DNA of 29,670 nucleotides from IMG/VR virus record IMGVR_UViG_3300046386_000020, positions 1-29,670 of that record, one strand, 5' to 3'. Shown piece after piece: positions 9,956 to 27,591 of the stretch. The position numbers were made by a program, and so were the translations under genes. How positions within the stretch are numbered: position 1 is the stretch's first letter; the number at the start of each line of letters is the position of its first letter. The DNA comes from a virus. Under the pieces are notes generated by a model. It had not been told where the DNA came from. It saw only the letters and a program-made list of their open reading frames with translations, and did no database searches.

Positions 9956-12900
9956 ATGAAGAACCTCTTCGACTACGACGCGCAAGCGAACGAATCCGTG
10001 CTTGGCGGCGTTGCTGCAACTACCGCTGTGGGGCTGCCCAAGCCCGAAGCCATTGGGGGCACTTTTGCCCCGGGCGGCTCTAACGCTACAGCTGACGCTT
10101 TGCTCGCGCAGATGAAGACCCGCACAGCCACGATGGCTGCAGGTTTGCAGGCACAACGCCCACAGCGTGAACCCGTGGTTGGTTACAACCCCGAAACCAA
10201 CGACCTGTTCAGTGGTGGCAAGACATTCAAACTTGACCTGAACGAAGGCCGCGCTAACGCAGCCCTGCTCGACACAGACAACCAGCAACTGCCCGAAGGT
10301 TTTGTGCCTGTTGCAAGTTCGCAGGTTAAGCAGCGGTTGCAGCGTGAGTTCGAGAGCCAAGGTTTGTTGTCCGACGCGTCACGTCGATCTGGCCAGTTCC
10401 TGTCCGGCGTTGGTTCTGCAGCCCGCGACGTAGGCTTGCCCGGTGCACAGGCTCTGGAGCAGTATGGTGCTGGCGTTGCAGCTCGCAACCCAAGTCAGAT
10501 TCAGACCGCTGGTGACATCTTGGCCAAGCCCATGACGGCTGCTGGCGAAGCTTTTGGTGAAGCCTCTGTAGACCTCGCGAAAGCCGCAGTCGGTGCGACT
10601 GCTGGAGCCAAGATCGGCGCTGCCCTTGCACCACTTACTGGTGGCTTATCCATTCCTCTGGGCGCAATCCTTGGTGGCGCTGGTGTATTCTTGCCTAACT
10701 TGCTGGAGTCTTACGGCTCTATCCGCAAAGAGCAACGCGAGCAGGGTATTGAGGACAAGACCCGCGCAGCAGGCGCAGCTGTTGGCGCAGCAGCTCTTGA
10801 TACAGCCCTTGGTCCAGAAGCCGCTATTGCTCGCATGGCAACCCGCAAGGTAGGCGCTGTTGCAGCCCGTGATCTGTTGGAGCAAGGTGCAGGCCGCTCT
10901 ATTGCTGCTGGTGCAGCGCGGGGCGCTGCTGTTGAAGGCCCACTGACGGAAGTCCCACAGTCTGCGATCGAGCGCTTTGGTGCGTACAAGTCCATGACGA
11001 GTGACGATGCCCTCAACGAGTATCTGATTGGCGCATTCAAGGGTGCTGTGGGTGGCGGTGCAATGAGCACCGTGACTTCGTACGTCGAGTACGCGCAGGC
11101 CAAAAATTTCATGAACAACTTTATGGCAGATCAGCAGGCAGCTGCCGATTTGAGTTTGCCTTCGTCCGTGCGTATTGCTGCAGCCCGCCGAGTGCAGGAT
11201 GTCATGCGTGGTGCATCTGACGACGCCCAGTTCGACCAGCAGTTGCAAGAGTTCAAGCAGAAGTTACAGTTTCTCGAAACCGGTATGGTGTCGACTGCTA
11301 CGCAAGAGGCGCTGGACAGCGGGGCACCGCTGAACTTGATGGACACGAATCCACAGCAGGACATGTTTAACCGCGTTGTGCCGCCTACGCCAAGCATCAC
11401 AGAGGAAGCACCAGAGCCTGTCGTTACACAACCTGCACAGACAGAACTCTTCGGTACTGAGGGCTCGCCCATCTTCGGCATTACTCCTGAAGCCCAGTTC
11501 CGTGGGCAGATGAACGAAGCGCTGTCGGTGATGAATGAAATCCGTGGCACTGGTCCAGCGTTCCCCGAGCCAGCGCCGATTGTCCCAAGCCCTGTGACTG
11601 GCGAGCTCACACCCGGGCAGCAAGCTGCACTGGCTGGTCCAAATGCACCTACGCCTATCCGTGGCGAGCAAACACCCGTGACTGGTGGCCCAGCGGCGCT
11701 TACCGAAGGCCAACGCACTGCGTTGCGTGGCCCTGACATCCAGCCACCTGCCCCTGCGGCTCCTGCCCCCACACCTGTCCAACAACTCCTAACATCGCTG
11801 CCGTCACTTGATCTTCCTGCGACGCCCAGCTCCCCTGCACCAGTTGCCCGTGGTGTCTCCGAGGGTGGCACAACCCGTGTTGTGCCTTTACCCGCTGCGC
11901 CGGTCGCAGCGGGTGTTTCTTTGACTGACACGGGCAAAGAAGATGCGATCATTGAAGAAGCTGGCCTTACCCCGCTGAAGGGCAAAAACCCTCTTGCTGC
12001 ATCTGTCGAAGGTGCTGCTGGCAAAGTGCAGGGTCGCCCATCCATGACCAAGCAGGCGTTCACGGCCATCCGCAGCGCCATCATGAATCCCGGCAAGAAG
12101 GCCGATGAGAAGACGACCAAGATCGCTGACGCTGTCCGCAACTTCGCTGTGTCTTACAAGGCGTACCTGACTGCGTACGGCAACGTCAAGCGGTTCTCTG
12201 ATCCACTCAAAGGCAAGGACACTGCCGCCGCTGCCAAGCAGCGTGCTGACGCTGTTGTGTCTACCGCCGAGATGCGTGCTGCTGAGGCTCGTGAAGCCTT
12301 GCGCGTGCTGGGTGAAGTTCTGGGTGGCAACGCCAAGGACGTTGAGGTGATAGTACGCTTGGTTAAAGATGCTGTGCAGTCGGCCGCCGCCAAGCCCGGG
12401 TCCACACCTAAAGAAGTCGTGCAGGAGCTCAAGAGCTTTGACGCCATGTTGTCGCAGGCATGGAATGCTGCCAAGTCTGACACGTTCATCGAAGACACGG
12501 ACATGTTCTACACACGTCCCGGCGAAACACGCACAGCCAAAGAAGCCAAGCCCGGCACTGTGCAGCCGCTGGAAAAAGCAGCGACCGAAGGCTACAGCAA
12601 CCCACGCGGCAACGGCAGCCCTGAGAACACCTACAAAGGCTTCTTGGGCGTCTTGCAGTATGTGCGGTTCAACGGTACAGGTTACGAGCAGATTCTCGCT
12701 CGTCAAATCCGCGAAGTGCTCAAAGCGTCCGGCGATCTGCCCAAGGTAGTGTTTATCACGTCTGGCACGCCACGCTTTGACCCCCGCTCCAACACAATCT
12801 ACATCAAGGCCAACCAGTCGAACTCGGTGGTTCTGCACGAGGCACTTCACGCTGCCCTGCAATGGTTTGTGTACAACAACCCGAATGATCCTATCGTTGC

Positions 12901-15900
12901 TGACCTGAAGAAGTCAGTAAAGGCCGTCATCGGATACAAAGGCGCTTTGGGTGCCAAGGCCAAGCAAGTTCAAAAGCTGCTGGCTGATTTGGTCAAGGGT
13001 GGCAACGAGCTGGACGCTGTGCTGGAGCTGGTGTCCTACGGCAACACGATGAACGAGTTCCGCACCGCCATGGATGCCATGCCCAAGAAGGGTACGCCCA
13101 AGTCGTTCTACGATGCTGTGCAGGATGTGTGGCAGTTCACGTTGGCGCTCATTCGCCGCCTGACTGGTGTGAAGGACAACACCGAAGCCACAAACGTGCT
13201 CAACCGCACGTGGGAGTTGTTGGCCAAGGCCGCAGAGACTGAAACCCCCGCAGAGCGTGCACGGCAGGGTAACGTGTTGGAAGCTGCCATCATGGAGGAC
13301 ACTTCTCCTCTGCCGGACCAAGCACACAGCATGCAGCGACCCGGTGGCGATTTACCCAGCAAGCAAGACCTGAGCGTCTACAACCAGCGGGCCATGCCTC
13401 AGTTCTTGTCCACCAAGTGGATTTTTGACGCCATCGGCTGGGACAAGGTTTCTTCGTTTACCACCAAGACCGCAGACACTGTAGCGAACGCCATCCGCAA
13501 AGACTTTCCGAGTCTGGAGCGCTGGATCAGCTATGTGAATTCTCGCTTCGGTGTGCCACAGGACTTGCGCGGTGTGTACACACAGTACAAAGATAACCGC
13601 CAAGCCGGGTATAAGCTGTCTGAGCGACTGGCCAACTTCATCCAATTTCGCCCCAAGGAAGATGTCACGGCAATCTTTGCCTACCTTGACGGGGACACTC
13701 GCGCACTGGCAAATGACCCAGCAACGCGTGAGCTGGCCGATGAGGTGAAGAAGTGGCGTGACTTCTACGTGCAGGAGTTGAGCAAGGATAAGAAAAACGC
13801 CAAGATCGCTGAGTTCTTCGCTCGTGGCAAGTTCTCTGAGACCATGCTGATCGCCTCACGCCCTGAGCAGGTTGCCAGTTCTACGTTTGGTGCCCGCAAG
13901 CTCAACAACTTGCTTGGCCAAAAGACGAAGTTTGAGCCCGACCTGTACACAGGCTGGATGAACCTGAGTGCTGAAGGTGACGTCATCTTGGACGGACAGC
14001 GCTTCTTCTCTGTGTACACCCGCGATGGCAACAAGGATTTGCACCAAGGCTTCATTGCCGAGTCCAAGTTCAAAGCCGAGGGGGCACCTGCAGGGTTCTA
14101 CGTTGACCCCACTTACATCTGGTACCACCAGAGCAAGAATAAGAAGGGGCACAAGTTTGTTGCACAGATGACCACTGCACAGGCCATCCAAGAGAACCGT
14201 GCTGACGATCTTGCCAACGCGCTGCGCAACACCATGGCTACGCTGGCTGGCAACTACGCCTCGATGGAGTTCTCCAAGGGCTTGACCGCTTACGGCCTGA
14301 ACGACGACGGCACTCGCTCGGAAGAGTCTGCAGTGTTTGACAACATCGAGCAGATCGAAAAGCTGTACGACATCAAGATCAACCCGGACTCTGTGTTGAA
14401 GGCCAGCGATGACATTGCTGAGTCTGGCCGTGCCAAGAACCTGTACCGCACATCGCACCTGTGGGTGCAAGTTCCGAAGACAGACACCTACGGCGCATTG
14501 GCTGGCAAGATTGTGCGTGCTTCTGCATGGAGCGCCATGAACGACATGAGCGATCGTCGCCCGGTTGTGAACATCCAAGCAATCAACGGCATGATGCGCT
14601 GGTTCAAGAAGTCGAAAACAGTGTACAACTTCAGCACGCACGTCACCAACGTGGCGACCAACTTTACGCTGGCCATGCTGCACGACATCCCGTTTCGCAC
14701 AGTGGCACACGCCGCCAAGCTGTACGCGATGTACGAAGTGAACCCCAACGCCATGACTGAGCAAGACCGTCAGCTGATGCTCGCGTTCATGAACTCCAAC
14801 GCCTCACAGGGCGACTTCTCCAGCACTGAGGTCAAGCAGGCTCTGTACGATGCCATGGAGAAGACTGTGTCTGGCAACGCGACATCACTCACTGCACGCC
14901 TTGCTGCGTTCGCCAAGCTGGAGAAGTCCAAAGCAGAAGCTGTAGAGAAAATTGTCGGCAAGGCTGGTAACGTCGCCGAGCGCATCGACCGTGTGGCCAC
15001 AGAGCTGTACTCTGCGGAAGACAACGTGTTCCGCTTGGCTGCGTTCTTGAAGTTCGCCGCTGACCGCGCAGCCCAGAACAGCACAGGTGTTGCATCTACC
15101 GCTGACTTGCAGGCAGCTGGCGATCACGCCCGCGAGGCATTTCTCGACTACGACATCGACTCCAAGGCCGTTCGTGTCGGTCGGCAAACCGTGCTGCCGT
15201 TCATCTCGTGGACATATGCCATCATCCCTGTGCTTGGTCGCATCGCAGTGCATCAACCGTGGAAGATCGCCAACTTGATGCTGGCCTACGCCGTCCTCGA
15301 GCACGTCATGCAGGAAGTGGCGGGTGGTGATGAAGAAGACGAGAAGCTGCGCAAGGCAGCCCCTGAGCAGTTCCGTGAGCGCATGTTTGGTTTCGGCCCT
15401 TACATGCACATCCGCATTCCGTTCTTGGGCTCAGACGCACAGCCGGTTTACTACAAACTGGGTGACTACATCCCCATGGCTGGTCTTACACGCACACAAC
15501 CCAACGGCTTGATGGGGCAGGACTGGTACCCTTCGTCGATCACACCGACAGGTCCGTTCGTGTCTACGGTCGCTGCAGCTGTGCTAGGTGTTGATCCGTA
15601 CACTGGCAGAGAACTCAGCACTCCAACAGACTCGAACTGGGAGAAGTTTGCAGATCGTGCCAAGGCTGTTGGCGGCCAGTTCGTGCCACAGGTGGGTGTT
15701 GACCTATTGCGTTGGGATCGTGTAAATGACATCGTCAAGGGTCGAGCAGACAAAGCTGCCAACTTTGAAGCCATGCAGATGGCACGCTGGGCAGGTCTGA
15801 AGCTGTACGAGTTTGATGTGGCAGAATCTGGTGCACAACAAGCCCGCGCTGCCAGAGCGATCATGACTGAGTACCAGACAGAGATTCGCAAGATTGCCCG

Positions 15901-16009
15901 CGCTGAGGCACGCTATGAGCGTCCAGACTGGGATTCTTTTAACCAGCGTCAGGCCGAACTGATCGAGCGCATGACGGAGAAAATGGCGAAAGCCAAAGGA
16001 GAAGAGTGA
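9956..16009 (+). CDS. Giant internal virion/ejection (polyvalent-type) protein with HExxH motif (2017 aa)
   Basis: ATG 9956 is the first start in the frame. Residues ~150-350 are Ala/Gly-rich membrane-like helices (AALAPLTGGLSIPLGAILGG) followed by 'EGPLTEVPQSAIERFG' and 'NEYLIGAFKGAVGGGAMS', a pattern common in podovirus ejection proteins. Residues ~500-660 are Pro/Thr/Gly-rich linker. Residues ~960-967 carry HEALHAAL, an HExxH zinc-metalloprotease motif (H961, E962, H965), within a domain beginning near 'KVVFITSGTPRFDPRSN'. The C-terminal half is helical, with 'LPFISWTYAIIPVLGRIAVH' near residues 1748-1767. Its size and its place at the end of the virion run fit a T7 gp16-like ejected protein or a 'polyvalent' multi-domain protein carried in the capsid. 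Protease activity is inferred from the motif only. Confidence 0.75.
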   Translation: MKNLFDYDAQANESVLGGVAATTAVGLPKPEAIGGTFAPGGSNATADALLAQMKTRTATMAAGLQAQRPQREPVVGYNPETNDLFSGGKTFKLDLNEGRANAALLDTDNQQLPEGFVPVASSQVKQRLQREFESQGLLSDASRRSGQFLSGVGSAARDVGLPGAQALEQYGAGVAARNPSQIQTAGDILAKPMTAAGEAFGEASVDLAKAAVGATAGAKIGAALAPLTGGLSIPLGAILGGAGVFLPNLLESYGSIRKEQREQGIEDKTRAAGAAVGAAALDTALGPEAAIARMATRKVGAVAARDLLEQGAGRSIAAGAARGAAVEGPLTEVPQSAIERFGAYKSMTSDDALNEYLIGAFKGAVGGGAMSTVTSYVEYAQAKNFMNNFMADQQAAADLSLPSSVRIAAARRVQDVMRGASDDAQFDQQLQEFKQKLQFLETGMVSTATQEALDSGAPLNLMDTNPQQDMFNRVVPPTPSITEEAPEPVVTQPAQTELFGTEGSPIFGITPEAQFRGQMNEALSVMNEIRGTGPAFPEPAPIVPSPVTGELTPGQQAALAGPNAPTPIRGEQTPVTGGPAALTEGQRTALRGPDIQPPAPAAPAPTPVQQLLTSLPSLDLPATPSSPAPVARGVSEGGTTRVVPLPAAPVAAGVSLTDTGKEDAIIEEAGLTPLKGKNPLAASVEGAAGKVQGRPSMTKQAFTAIRSAIMNPGKKADEKTTKIADAVRNFAVSYKAYLTAYGNVKRFSDPLKGKDTAAAAKQRADAVVSTAEMRAAEAREALRVLGEVLGGNAKDVEVIVRLVKDAVQSAAAKPGSTPKEVVQELKSFDAMLSQAWNAAKSDTFIEDTDMFYTRPGETRTAKEAKPGTVQPLEKAATEGYSNPRGNGSPENTYKGFLGVLQYVRFNGTGYEQILARQIREVLKASGDLPKVVFITSGTPRFDPRSNTIYIKANQSNSVVLHEALHAALQWFVYNNPNDPIVADLKKSVKAVIGYKGALGAKAKQVQKLLADLVKGGNELDAVLELVSYGNTMNEFRTAMDAMPKKGTPKSFYDAVQDVWQFTLALIRRLTGVKDNTEATNVLNRTWELLAKAAETETPAERARQGNVLEAAIMEDTSPLPDQAHSMQRPGGDLPSKQDLSVYNQRAMPQFLSTKWIFDAIGWDKVSSFTTKTADTVANAIRKDFPSLERWISYVNSRFGVPQDLRGVYTQYKDNRQAGYKLSERLANFIQFRPKEDVTAIFAYLDGDTRALANDPATRELADEVKKWRDFYVQELSKDKKNAKIAEFFARGKFSETMLIASRPEQVASSTFGARKLNNLLGQKTKFEPDLYTGWMNLSAEGDVILDGQRFFSVYTRDGNKDLHQGFIAESKFKAEGAPAGFYVDPTYIWYHQSKNKKGHKFVAQMTTAQAIQENRADDLANALRNTMATLAGNYASMEFSKGLTAYGLNDDGTRSEESAVFDNIEQIEKLYDIKINPDSVLKASDDIAESGRAKNLYRTSHLWVQVPKTDTYGALAGKIVRASAWSAMNDMSDRRPVVNIQAINGMMRWFKKSKTVYNFSTHVTNVATNFTLAMLHDIPFRTVAHAAKLYAMYEVNPNAMTEQDRQLMLAFMNSNASQGDFSSTEVKQALYDAMEKTVSGNATSLTARLAAFAKLEKSKAEAVEKIVGKAGNVAERIDRVATELYSAEDNVFRLAAFLKFAADRAAQNSTGVASTADLQAAGDHAREAFLDYDIDSKAVRVGRQTVLPFISWTYAIIPVLGRIAVHQPWKIANLMLAYAVLEHVMQEVAGGDEEDEKLRKAAPEQFRERMFGFGPYMHIRIPFLGSDAQPVYYKLGDYIPMAGLTRTQPNGLMGQDWYPSSITPTGPFVSTVAAAVLGVDPYTGRELSTPTDSNWEKFADRAKAVGGQFVPQVGVDLLRWDRVNDIVKGRADKAANFEAMQMARWAGLKLYEFDVAESGAQQARAARAIMTEYQTEIRKIARAEARYERPDWDSFNQRQAELIERMTEKMAKAKGEE

Positions 16010-16269
16010 TGGCCAAGACAGCAGCATGGCAACGCAAAGAAGGCAAAGACCCGCAGGGCGGACTCAACGCTAAAGGGCGTGCATCTTACAACAAAGCCAA
16101 CCCCGGCAAGCCGGGGCTCAAGCCACCAGCCCCCAACCCCAAGAACGCCAAAGACGCTGCACGCCGTGACAGCTTCTGCGCACGCATGTCTGGGATGCCG
16201 GGTCCAATGAAAGACGAGAAGGGCCAGCCTACGCGCAAAGCGCTCTCCCTCAAGGCTTGGAACTGCTGA
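16009..16269 (+). CDS. Small basic phage protein, DUF6321-like (86 aa)
   Basis: ATG 16009 overlaps the previous TGA, with AAAGGAG (15996-16002 region) at proper spacing; an upstream in-frame GTG at 16006 is too close. The sequence 'TAAWQRKEGKDPQGGLNAKG', 'RASYNKANPG' and 'DSFCARMSGMPGPMKDEKG' is the recognisable pattern of a conserved short phage domain (DUF6321 from memory). The function is unknown. The protein is Lys/Arg-rich with two cysteines. It is the first of four very small Lys-rich genes placed between the ejection protein and the strand switch. A nucleic-acid-binding or virion-internal role is plausible but not shown. Confidence 0.8.
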   Translation: MAKTAAWQRKEGKDPQGGLNAKGRASYNKANPGKPGLKPPAPNPKNAKDAARRDSFCARMSGMPGPMKDEKGQPTRKALSLKAWNC

Positions 16270-16270
16270 C

Positions 16271-16459
16271 ATGGCTACAAAACCCAAATCCACAGTCAAT
16301 GCCGCTGGCAACTACACCAAGCCCACGCTTCGCAAGAAGATCGTGGCACAGGTCAAAGCCGCAGCTACCCAAGGCACTGGTGCAGGCCAATGGTCTGCTC
16401 GCAAGGCACAGCTTGTGGCCAAGAAATACAAGGCCGCTGGCGGCTCGTACAGGGACTGA
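16271..16459 (+). CDS. Small basic phage protein, DUF5872-like (62 aa)
   Basis: ATG 16271 lies 1 nt after the preceding stop. 'YTKPTLRKKIVAQVKAAATQ' followed by 'GAGQWSARKAQLVAKKYKAAGG' is the signature of a short domain widespread in viruses and some bacteria (DUF5872 from memory), whose conserved core is 'TKP.LR ... GQWSARKAQL.A..YK..GG.Y'. It is strongly basic and helical with no cysteine. It is often seen next to the DUF6321-like protein, as here. The function is unknown. Confidence 0.8.
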   Translation: MATKPKSTVNAAGNYTKPTLRKKIVAQVKAAATQGTGAGQWSARKAQLVAKKYKAAGGSYRD

Positions 16460-16460
16460 C

Positions 16461-16694
16461 GTGAAAGCCCCTCAGAAATCCCTCAAAGAGTGGACGGATC
16501 AAAAATGGCGCACAAAGTCTGGCAAGCCGTCGTCGAAGACCGGCGAGCGCTACCTGCCCGAAGCCGCCATCAAATCACTGAGTCCTGCTGAGTATGCAGC
16601 AACGACCAAGGCCAAGCGCGAAGGCAAAGCGCAAGGCAAACAGTTTGTAGCGCAACCCCAAAAGATCGCTGCGAAAACCGCGAAGTACCGCTAA
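16461..16694 (+). CDS. Small Lys-rich conserved phage protein (77 aa, GTG start)
   Basis: The open frame extends back to 16257, but that part overlaps the DUF5872-like gene in another frame and reads as noise. The conserved-looking protein starts at GTG 16461, 1 nt after the upstream stop: 'VKAPQKSLKEWTDQKWRTKS', 'GERYLPEAAIKSLSPAEYAA', 'GKQFVAQPQKIAAKTAKYR'. The 'SLKEWT.Q.W.TKSGKPS' and 'GERYLP..AI..L...EYA.T' patterns recur in phage and large-virus small proteins. It is very basic, with no known function. It belongs to the same four-gene set. Confidence 0.75.
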   Translation: MKAPQKSLKEWTDQKWRTKSGKPSSKTGERYLPEAAIKSLSPAEYAATTKAKREGKAQGKQFVAQPQKIAAKTAKYR

Positions 16695-16712
16695 CCAACC
16701 AAGGAGCCTATC

Positions 16713-16844
16713 ATGGCAACCAAGAAACCTATGATGATGAAGCCCGCAGGCAAAAAAGCTGCGCCGTTCAAACCCTGTGCTGGCTGCAAGATGCCGGGCA
16801 AGTGCGCAGCTGTTGGCAAGTGCCTCGGCAAAGCTAAGAAGTAA
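16713..16844 (+). CDS. Cys/Lys-rich miniprotein (43 aa)
   Basis: ATG 16713 is preceded by AAGGAG (16701-16706) with 6-nt spacing, a strong ribosome site. The 43-residue product begins MATKKPMMMKPAGKK and continues 'PFKPCAGCKMPGKCAAVGKC' before ending LGKAKK. Four cysteines (CxxC, then C and C) in 17 residues suggest a metal site or a redox/disulphide knuckle within a Lys-rich tail. The strong ribosome site and placement directly after similar small basic genes support it as real. The function is unknown. Confidence 0.65.
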   Translation: MATKKPMMMKPAGKKAAPFKPCAGCKMPGKCAAVGKCLGKAKK

Positions 16845-16850
16845 TTACTT
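16839..16850. repeat. 12-bp palindrome at the convergent gene junction
   Basis: AAGTAATTACTT is a perfect palindrome formed by the Lys-stop codons of the two converging genes (AAG TAA on +, AAG TAA on -). The two coding arms meet here with zero spacer. A G/C-rich imperfect inverted repeat follows within the HNH coding sequence (CCGGGCC ... GGTCCGG, 16854-16873). No clear intrinsic terminator with a T-tract is seen for either arm. Confidence 0.75.
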
Positions 16851-17096
16851 CATCCGGGCCGTCTTGGTCCGGGCAAAGGAGCGGTTTTCGGACTTGGGCA
16901 CTGCACGCAGGTTGCCTGATCCGTTACCGCCGCCTTTGGCAATAGGCGTCTTGTGGTCTACATCGAGGTTATCTCCTTTGCGGACCACACCCTTCTTCTC
17001 CATCTCAGCACGAGCGGCGTTGCGCATGGCGCGTTTCTTAATCTGCTCAGGTTTACCTTGATACGCTTGGTACTCATTTTTGTAATCGCGTGGCAT
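16845..17096 (-). CDS. HNH endonuclease, small phage type (83 aa)
   Basis: ATG at 17096 with GAGGA upstream on the - strand. The basic N-terminus (MPRDYKNEYQAYQGKPEQIK) precedes an HNH core: 'VRKGDNLDVDHKTPIAKGG' with the D-H pair of the beta-beta-alpha-metal motif, then 'GNGSGNLRAVPKSENRSFAR' with the Asn residues that complete it. The protein cuts DNA with a divalent metal. Such small stand-alone HNH proteins act in packaging (beside terminase) or as homing/nicking enzymes. Terminase is not adjacent here. The gene is the last of the - strand operon, 9 nt after the MazG-like gene. Confidence 0.88.
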   Translation of the reverse strand: MPRDYKNEYQAYQGKPEQIKKRAMRNAARAEMEKKGVVRKGDNLDVDHKTPIAKGGGNGSGNLRAVPKSENRSFARTKTARMK

Positions 17097-24756: not shown

Positions 24757-25001
24757 GTTTCTTCCAAAGTTGCTTCTGCAAGTTGTACAGTGAGTTGTTC
24801 AACCAGTAGTTCGAGAAGTTGCCTTCTCGTGAGTTGCAGCCTATCACTTCTACCAGCCGCGCTGACTGTGTACGCAGGAATATCAAGCACAAGAACATCA
24901 GCGTCAAGGCACCGCAGGGCTACGCGAAACCGCCAGTCAATGTGGTTGAAGTCGTGGTATCCCTCTACCACACACCACTGCGGCAGCATGTGGTCTCTCA
25001 T
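24753..25001 (-). CDS. Hypothetical protein between polymerase and nuclease (82 aa)
   Basis: ATG 25001 overlaps the polymerase stop (ATGA) and its TGA overlaps the nuclease ATG (ATGA at 24756-24753). The N-terminal half (MLPQWCVVEGYHDFNHIDWR ... LDADVLVLDIPAYTVS) looks like a small alpha/beta fold. The C-terminal half (LQLTRRQLLELLVEQLTVQL) is a long amphipathic helix. No known family was recognised. Exact double overlap supports expression with the polymerase. Confidence 0.72.
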   Translation of the reverse strand: MRDHMLPQWCVVEGYHDFNHIDWRFRVALRCLDADVLVLDIPAYTVSAAGRSDRLQLTRRQLLELLVEQLTVQLAEATLEET

Positions 25002-25975
25002 TTCGCGTCTCCATACGAGGGGCCAGTTCCAGTTTCACACGACACGGGGATGCTGCGGCACCACTTGGGTGTTAACGACAGGCACTCTTCCATGTACGCA
25101 CGGGCTTCATCAAGTTCTTCATTCCTCACCACACAGACAGCCTCGTCATGGACGGACAGCTTCACTGGGTAGCGCTGATTGATACGTGCAGTTTGCCACA
25201 TAACGATCTGCATTGCAGCATGTTGCGATAAATTTTCTACGACTTTCGCGCCATGCAGGTTCACACGCTGGCGACCCATGGTGTACGTCCAGCCCTTGCC
25301 GTCATGGCTCAGCTCGTTGTACATCACACCGGGCTCACCGGGGCGACCAAAGCCATCCCACTGCGTTACAAACCAGCCGTTGACATCCACGTTAATCATG
25401 CTACAGCCGTTGGCAATGTCAGGCAATATGACCTTCTCGCAACGCTTCCACAACTCGACAACCTTGTAGTGCACGGACCTGTACAGGTCCACAATCTTGT
25501 AAGCTCTGTCGAGGTCAATCAACTCAACACCGGGGTCAGTGCGCTTGGCCAGCCGCACCATCTCTTGGAAGCGTGCAGCTCCTGCACCGTACTGCAAACC
25601 CAGCATCGCTGTCTTGCCCAAGAAACGCTCGGCCTTGTCTTTCTTCGTAATCTCGCGGCCAAAGAGCTTGGACGCAAAGTCACAGTACAGGTCAACGCCG
25701 TTCTTCAACTTCTCTGTCACGTCATCTTGGCCAGCCAGTGCCATCACTGTGCGGAGTTCGATGTTGGATGAGTCGCCGACGAGCACAGTGTGGCCAGCAG
25801 GAGCCAGCAACGCATCGCGCAAGCCCGCTGATGGGCCACGCGCAGGGATGTTCTGCCAGTTGCAGTTAGAAACTATCTTCCCGTTCGCTGCGAAGCGATT
25901 TCGTGGCCCGCAGTTTACGATGTCGAATACTGGGGCGACCGCTAGTACTTTTTGGGCGGTTAATGATTTCGTCAT
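24998..25975 (-). CDS. DNA polymerase family A, C-terminal part, preceded by a C-intein (325 aa)
   Basis: ATG 25975 has AAAGGA at 25988-25983, 7 nt upstream. Residues 1-37 are a C-intein: 'VFDIVNCGPRNRFAANG' (block F) and 'KIVSN' (block G), ending at Asn37, followed by Cys38 as the +1 extein residue. The extein continues 'NWQNIPARG', motif A with D68 (VGDSSNIELRTV), motif B R117-x3-K121-x7-YG (129-130) and motif C HDE (276-278). This is a full polymerase catalytic core lacking its exonuclease and thumb region. Those are encoded at 26323-27591 in another frame. The usual block F His (here N26) and penultimate His (here S36) are both absent. The 3' end forms ATGA with the next gene. Alone this half should be inactive; trans-splicing would restore the enzyme. 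Confidence 0.92.
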   Translation of the reverse strand: MTKSLTAQKVLAVAPVFDIVNCGPRNRFAANGKIVSNCNWQNIPARGPSAGLRDALLAPAGHTVLVGDSSNIELRTVMALAGQDDVTEKLKNGVDLYCDFASKLFGREITKKDKAERFLGKTAMLGLQYGAGAARFQEMVRLAKRTDPGVELIDLDRAYKIVDLYRSVHYKVVELWKRCEKVILPDIANGCSMINVDVNGWFVTQWDGFGRPGEPGVMYNELSHDGKGWTYTMGRQRVNLHGAKVVENLSQHAAMQIVMWQTARINQRYPVKLSVHDEAVCVVRNEELDEARAYMEECLSLTPKWCRSIPVSCETGTGPSYGDAK

Positions 25976-26462
25976 CTGTTAATCCTTTCACAATCCATGT
26001 TCGTATGGTTTCATAGCTGAGATCAGTTCGTATGTCAGCCAGCTTCGCAATGCGCTCTCCGTACTTCCAGCACGTATACCGTCGTTTGTTGTTCGCTTGC
26101 TCTTCGCGTGAGGCCCAGCGGATATTGCCGGGCTCATAGTTCTTGCTGTTGTCAATTCGATCTATCGAGTGCTGCCCAGACGGCCTCACGCCTAGCGTCT
26201 GCAAAACGTACATCGCCATCATCATTCCTGACGCGAACTTAAAGTAAATCCCACGCCCGCCGTAGTTCTCGTACGCCACGTTCATTTTGTTCGTGCATCT
26301 GTCTTTCGCGCTCTGGCACAACCTACGTAACGAGTCCCACTCTGCTGGCGTCACCCCCAGTCTGAAGCACAAGTCCTTCGCTTGCCGCGACTCCAAGCTC
26401 GACTGGTTCCTCCCTACCAACGACGTAGACTTTGTGGTCGACCGTGCCGATGATTCCGTCAT
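25866..26462 (-). CDS. Homing-endonuclease-like protein nested in the split intein (198 aa)
   Basis: ATG 26462 is preferred over TTG 26468 because AAGGAGG (26478-26472) is 9 nt upstream. The recognisable core starts near residue 43: 'LCQSAKDRCTNKMNVAYENY', 'GGRGIYF', 'SIDRIDNSKNYEPGNIRWAS', 'EEQANNKRR'. This is a common phage HNH-like (possibly EDxHD/Vsr-like) endonuclease family. It is followed by a helix-turn-helix-like tail 'LADIRTDLSYETIRTWIVKG'. About 45 N-terminal and 35 C-terminal residues read the intein-coding DNA in another frame and may be non-functional. It would cut intein-less polymerase alleles to drive spread of the element. Its own ribosome site makes it a free-standing enzyme rather than an intein domain. 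Confidence 0.8.
   Translation of the reverse strand: MTESSARSTTKSTSLVGRNQSSLESRQAKDLCFRLGVTPAEWDSLRRLCQSAKDRCTNKMNVAYENYGGRGIYFKFASGMMMAMYVLQTLGVRPSGQHSIDRIDNSKNYEPGNIRWASREEQANNKRRYTCWKYGERIAKLADIRTDLSYETIRTWIVKGLTDDEIINRPKSTSGRPSIRHRKLRATKSLRSEREDSF
25973..25988 (-). promoter_or_regulatory. Ribosome binding site of the polymerase C-half
   Basis: On the - strand AAAGGA (25988-25983) is followed by TTAACAG and ATG 25975. In the overlapping endonuclease frame the same bases encode KGLTDD, part of its HTH-like tail. A well-spaced site at the exact start of the C-intein argues that the C-half is translated separately, rather than being the product of a chance frameshift in one long gene. Confidence 0.75.
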
Positions 26463-27591
26463 ATTCAATTACCTCCTTGTAGCCCCTACACACAAGCCCA
26501 CCATGGGCCACAAACTCTGTGCCGTCCCAGACGAGATCGGTGTTTAGTAGCGCTGACATTAGGATAACCAAAATTTTCCCGTTGCGCAATACCGTCAGCC
26601 ACGTAGTTCCGACTAAACACTGGTTGCCGCCAGAGTACCGTCCAGTGGTCTTAGCGCCCCAGAAGTTGAGGTACACAGGCAATGGGCCGCGCTTGGCAGT
26701 CTCCAAGAACTTCAGCGCACGTGTCTCAGCGATAGTCGTTTTGACACCAAGGCGAGCCGCAACCAACGCCTGTACGTCCGCATCGTCGGACTCCAGCAAA
26801 TCGGTGAAGGCTTTGTCGGATTTGGCGAAGGCATAGGTCTCTTTGTCGGGGTTGGCCTTGCTCTGCTTCATCGGCGGGGTCACACCCAGCTCCAGCAAGC
26901 GAGCAGCAAATTTGTCATTGGACATAATGGTCTCGCGATCAGTCACGGCTGTCTTGAGCAGCTGTTCCTTGCGCACCACCTCGTCGTCGTAGAGCTGTTT
27001 CATCTTGGCTTCATCGCCGACCAGCGTGGGCTCTGTGAACATCCGCACAGTCATGTCGATCAGCCGTGTGGCCAGTGGCGGTGTGAACGGGTCGAACTTC
27101 TTGCCCAGCTCTTTGCACAGCCATGTGTCGTGCTTGCAGTAGTCTGCGTACTCCTCTAATTCCATGGGATTAAAGTCAGCGCGTCGTTTGCCCAGCGCCT
27201 TGACCACAGCTGTGCCTTTGTCCGGCAGGTTGTACTGCTTGACGAGGTTGGCCAGTGAGTGCGATGTCAGGAACGGCAGCAGCATGCGCCCTTGCCCGAG
27301 GGTATCCATCCACAGCTTAGGGCGGATGCCGAAGCGCTGCGTCAGGATGAACCCGTCGAACATGGTGTTGTGGCAGCGCACAGCGCTGTTGGCCCAGTCG
27401 AAGTTGCCCCACAGCCAGTGAAGCGTTTCTTCCTCAGAGCCAGAGAACCACACGGCATCTTCGTCGTTCTTGGTGACCGACACGCCAATGACTTCAAAGC
27501 GGTCATCGTTGATGTACGCGTCCGTCTGCATCTTGCTGAGACTGTACTGCTGGTCGTAGTAGGTCTCCATGTCCACTGTAAGAATATCCAT
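26323..27591 (-). CDS. DNA polymerase family A, N-terminal part (exonuclease + thumb) ending in an N-intein (422 aa)
   Basis: ATG 27591 overlaps the previous TAA (TAATG), with GGAGG 7 nt upstream. Residues 1-~165 are a DnaQ-like 3'-5' proofreading domain: ExoI 'VDMETYY' (D7, E9), ExoII 'CHNTMFDGFIL' and ExoIII 'YADYCKHD'. Residues ~170-324 are the start of the polymerase domain, ending 'FWGAKTTGRYSGGNQ'. Residue C325 begins an N-intein of 98 residues: block A 'CLVGTTWLTVLRNGKI' and block B 'GIIGTVDHKVYVVG' with the TxxH motif (T383, H386). The frame stops at TAG 26325-26323, in the normal endonuclease-insertion region. Joined by trans-splicing to the C-half it gives a 612-residue polymerase, a normal length for phage family A enzymes. 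Confidence 0.92.
   Translation of the reverse strand: MDILTVDMETYYDQQYSLSKMQTDAYINDDRFEVIGVSVTKNDEDAVWFSGSEEETLHWLWGNFDWANSAVRCHNTMFDGFILTQRFGIRPKLWMDTLGQGRMLLPFLTSHSLANLVKQYNLPDKGTAVVKALGKRRADFNPMELEEYADYCKHDTWLCKELGKKFDPFTPPLATRLIDMTVRMFTEPTLVGDEAKMKQLYDDEVVRKEQLLKTAVTDRETIMSNDKFAARLLELGVTPPMKQSKANPDKETYAFAKSDKAFTDLLESDDADVQALVAARLGVKTTIAETRALKFLETAKRGPLPVYLNFWGAKTTGRYSGGNQCLVGTTWLTVLRNGKILVILMSALLNTDLVWDGTEFVAHGGLVCRGYKEVIEYDGIIGTVDHKVYVVGREEPVELGVAASEGLVLQTGGDASRVGLVT
26460..26478 (-). promoter_or_regulatory. Ribosome binding site of the nested endonuclease
   Basis: AAGGAGG (26478-26472), then TAATTGAAT, then ATG 26462-26460 on the - strand. The site lies inside the N-intein coding sequence, where it encodes KEVIEYD shortly before block B. 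It is a seven-base match to the Shine-Dalgarno consensus with 9-nt spacing and decides the ATG start over the TTG at 26468. Confidence 0.78.

Follow-up and report, generated by a model that had tools for sequence, protein, structure and literature searches.

In a viral DNA stretch of 29,670 nt (positions 1 to 29,670 of the IMG/VR record IMGVR_UViG_3300046386_000020; hereafter the window), we found three small basic genes, A, B and C, whose products may be the separate parts of a single basic protein system, fused in other phages. The proteins would be made late from the virion operon, would take their place in the head or in the packaging complex and would bind or organise the packaged DNA there, and they may afterwards be delivered along with it. 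B and C would act as one unit, with A or a substitute, A2, as the obligatory third component, and the neighbouring gene D would be a local extra. We put the probability of such a late-made system acting on packaged DNA at about one half. It would join DUF6321, both halves of DUF5872 and A2, previously anonymous families, into one functional unit, and link a cyanophage virion protein with genes that stand alone in abundant pelagic and freshwater phages. Genes that hundreds of genomes list as 'hypothetical' would gain a candidate role, and the idea that proteins assist in organising or delivering the DNA of tailed phages would become testable.

The cassette A-D closes the late plus-strand operon of the window. 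As the original prediction had it, four consecutive basic genes of 86, 62, 77 and 43 aa lie there. All are on the plus strand, with pI values of 10.2-10.7. The ATG of A (16009..16269; 86 aa, pI 10.4) overlaps by one base the stop of a 2017-aa late gene (9956..16009, plus strand) for a putative ejection or inner protein. B (16271..16459; 62 aa, pI 10.7) starts one base after the stop of A, and C (16461..16694; 77 aa, GTG start, pI 10.3) starts one base after the stop of B, a tight packing that suggests translational coupling. D (16713..16844; 43 aa, pI 10.2) is the last gene of the operon. All four are genuine genes. Comparison with relatives gave dN/dS values of about 0.23 for A, 0.07 for B and 0.08 for C (rough for A and C, with few unsaturated pairs), indicating purifying selection on the three at the level of sequence. 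Upstream late genes match tail fibre, holin, endolysin, internal virion and tape-measure/transglycosylase families, and opposite-strand HNH-like, MazG-like and replication genes lie beyond D. The 2017-aa protein had no confident PHROG match, and in close relatives homologues of its gene precede the cassette. It carries an HExxH motif (LHEALH) at window position ~12836, suggesting a metalloprotease domain. Searches for promoters, terminators and RNA families gave nothing informative.

Two of the genes had been described as DUF6321-like and DUF5872-like. A proved to be a clear DUF6321 (PF19846) protein, with E 2.9e-27 in the profile search and 95.5 bits against a gathering cut-off of 28.5 over positions 1-72 of 72. 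It also matched phrog_4689 (E 4.4e-30), and its family is present in 490 phage records. B and C matched phrog_17747 (E 6.7e-25) and phrog_14910 (E 4.3e-37), both unannotated. Neither had a direct match to DUF5872 (PF19197) at E ≤ 1 in the profile search, and their direct assignment to that family was therefore rejected. We then compared both genes with relatives in which they are joined, since a single B-C protein is encoded by phages S-CRES1 and Hodr, by a proteobacterial MAG and by alphaproteobacterial chromosomes. By hhalign, B aligned with the N-terminal half of the bacterial and phage fusions at 99.1% and C with the C-terminal half at 99.8%, while reversed controls stayed below 1%. One fusion (G029) scored 27.7 bits against the DUF5872 cut-off of 27.5 over nearly the full length. 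At locus L167, the B-like sequence scored 42.1 bits against DUF5872 at positions 1-39, and the C-like sequence 20.9 bits at positions 51-90. Through these relatives, B and C correspond to the two halves of DUF5872, a family that includes bacterial fusions as well as a protein of an algal giant virus. The window, in contrast, splits it over two genes, neither of which passes the family test alone. An attempt to align separate B and C rows jointly to a fusion misplaced the B rows and was discarded. None of the papers searched names DUF6321, and one names DUF5872, in an algal giant virus; the text consulted on pelagiphage transcription and on cobaviruses contained no data on these genes.

We further studied how often the genes occur together. 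Of 50,697 phage records, 16 contain B and 19 contain C. Every record with B also had C, and in the three C-only records B was fused within the same ORF (for S-CRES2, as judged by a match to the fusion at 99% coverage). B adjoins C in nearly all loci examined, and in the initial set of IMG/VR and cultured loci it stood directly before C in 150, with a median gap of -1 nt. When unique B-C contigs that extend 3.5 kb or more upstream were inspected, every one carried a third gene (61/61), which was A in 56 and A2 in five, never both and never neither. Cultured carriers followed the same rule, with A in 10 (MEP401, MEP402, HTVC033P, 034P, 035P, 103P, 104P, 115P, EXVC029P and Hodr) and A2 in eight (HMO-2011, CRP-1, -9, -13, -345, -603, S-CRES1 and S-CRES2); in HTVC103P, 104P and 115P the A gene lies at a distance from B-C. 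One contig (L097), from a close relative of the window's phage, has the backbone of the window, including a 1904-aa ejection protein, HNH and MazG, but carries A2 in the A slot. These counts are not independent events, since most of the IMG/VR loci sampled are linked via shared flanking proteins: 112 of the 121 unique B-C loci were linked in this way, the other nine forming a second group. Cultured carriers mostly had at most one other ORF in common in the regions compared, indicating that several phage lineages are involved. A and A2 have only a short RR.SF.AR motif in common (14 columns), so we do not claim common descent for them. Cobaviruses also have A2 genes close to where the late operon ends, ahead of the strand switch, as in SIO1 (L256:5001-5240, unannotated) and ICBM2 (L354:4001-4258, preceding a bidirectional terminator). 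In some loci a further motif family, HYLPSG..Y.G..HK..G.LMTG..HT, lies between B and C (L097:6186-6332; L010:5855-6001) or is fused to B-C (L302:4706-4822); it is absent from the window.

The modules are also joined in single chains. B and C were fused in 78 ORFs, and there were two different B-C-A triple fusions, one in L282 and one in the identical L283 and L285, whose DUF6321 parts matched the Pfam model at E 6.5e-28 and 9.7e-29. The cyanophage proteins Syn9 gp114, P-SSM2_123, ACG-2014f gp129 and S-SCSM1 gp029 combine remote forms of C and B (C2-like and B2-like) with DUF6321 in one chain; the B2-like matches were modest (1.6e-4 to 3e-3) and are the weakest of the three parts. Among the closest known counterparts of the A-B-C set is the cyanomyovirus gp114-type protein, in which A and the remote B and C form one chain, whereas the window has three separate genes and its phage is not a T4-like cyanophage. 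In other phages the remote set was arranged as B2-C2-A2 in 51 of 80 loci and as B2-C2-A in 13, and HTVC027P carries a parallel set (gp49-gp50-gp52) within its virion operon. By hhalign, B matched B2 at E 1.3e-9 and C matched C2 at E 1.1e-5, scores reached by 0 of 60 permuted controls, and both pairs are homologous. B-C domains were also seen near the N-terminus of two frames of about 1600 aa (L271:3620-8368 and L273:3596-8377) that had no other confident family match, and at L165:4681-5001 a small basic protein (phrog_6437), resembling the HNH-like gene of the window, precedes a B-C fusion.

The original prediction treated all four genes as a co-occurring set with a shared role. For A (or A2), B and C this stood, as they recur together in unrelated aquatic phages, and the constant pairing, the fusions and the replacement of A by A2 make a joint role well supported by comparative evidence. 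D fell out of the set, having no match among cultured phages and a motif, FKPCxxCxxPxxCxxxGxC, present only in the window's own phage group. It has no known domain. Its own AAGGAG ribosome site and its four cysteines were as described, although the cysteines span 16 residues (22-37) and not 17. Its dN/dS was roughly 0.2-0.4, dN being the lower of the two rates in the measured pairs. The stop of D abuts that of a convergent 83-aa basic HNH-like gene (16845-17096, minus strand; phrog_4590).

To place the proteins in the virus particle, we examined DUF6321 relatives with proteomic records. S-CREM2 gp137 carries DUF6321 at its C-terminus and corresponds to ORF137 (108049-109521), which was detected in the mass-spectrometry virion proteome with four unique peptides and 4.1% (PMC10665884). 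ORF165 of the same phage, suspected from its size, was rejected as the DUF6321 gene, as the domain sits in gp137. In the S-SCSM1 record, gp029 is labelled 'virion protein', a label otherwise given to particle proteins and not to the terminase; 45 virion proteins of this phage were identified by mass spectrometry (PMC9602691), and the label of gp029 probably reports such detection. The DUF6321 protein of S-SZBM1 was not in the reported proteome of that phage. Proteins of the A2 family align with part of phrog_220, a group of minor head proteins. Given the virion detection of DUF6321 relatives, a head or virion location of A, B and C is moderately supported.

The set might instead comprise packaging accessory factors that aid the terminase or portal and need not remain in the particle. 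A-B-C lies directly upstream of terL in MEP402, and the cyanophage fusion proteins are encoded beside or between the terminase genes terS and terL, as would be expected of such factors. However, in the window and in the cobaviruses the late operon closes with these genes, at a distance from the terminase, and DUF6321 proteins were found in finished virions (S-CREM2 gp137, and S-SCSM1 gp029 by its label), and we consider a packaging role unlikely. None of the proteins appears to be the small terminase subunit itself, for a separate terS is annotated in CRP-13, Syn9 and S-SCSM1.

Of the two roles suggested originally, DNA binding inside the capsid and early host interference after injection, the former seems the better one, in view of the DUF6321 relatives in virions, the virion and packaging operons and a weak Rho_N-like tail, below cut-off, that ends two of the three bacterial B-C copies scanned. 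DNA is the likeliest partner of proteins with pI above 10 at a head or packaging location, although a high pI by itself does not establish DNA binding. A and a B-C fusion were modelled with AlphaFold2 (pLDDT 74 and 87, respectively); the models had no relative in the PDB and no match to a DNA-binding fold, and profile searches of PDB sequences returned nothing. A viral fold library gave phage and DUF5872-type matches only, among them a weak one (E 0.05) to a DUF5872 protein of Chrysochromulina ericina virus. As for the latter role, nothing specific spoke for early host interference: the genes sit in the late operon, following holin, endolysin, internal virion and tape-measure-type genes on the same strand. 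Head-borne factors acting on host DNA, RNA or nucleoid after injection would fit the position of the genes directly after a putative ejection protein and the chromosomal homologues with their Rho_N-like tail. Yet nothing indicates a host target, the late location argues against it and conservation over widely differing hosts points to a general role, so that host-acting factors are an unlikely explanation. That DUF6321 is a targeting or docking tag through which cargo reaches the head, B-C being either that cargo or another tag, is very unlikely: it is C-terminal in large proteins with varied N-terminal parts (ACG-2014f gp129, Sf-FS3, S-CREM2 gp137), but it stands alone beside B-C in many phages and is followed by further residues in L282 and L283.

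With action on packaged DNA as the preferred reading, the chlorovirus PBCV-1 proteins A278L, A282L and A437L, packaged basic DNA-binding proteins, may serve as a working analogy only. Chlorovirus basic virion proteins were proposed to neutralise and organise DNA, and the same source notes that basic proteins are not known to play much part in neutralising the DNA of tailed phages (PMC3281028). A bolder and rather doubtful proposal is that, in tailed phages infecting aquatic bacteria, a conserved system of three proteins condenses or organises head DNA, with homologues in bacterial chromosomes and, by a weak model comparison, giant algal viruses; if true, chromatin-like packaging would exist in a setting believed to lack it. 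Elsewhere in the window, two minus-strand ORFs (24998-25975 and 26323-27591) match consecutive parts (978-1233 and 670-980) of one DNA polymerase family, phrog_17, and the DNA polymerase of this phage therefore looks split in two.
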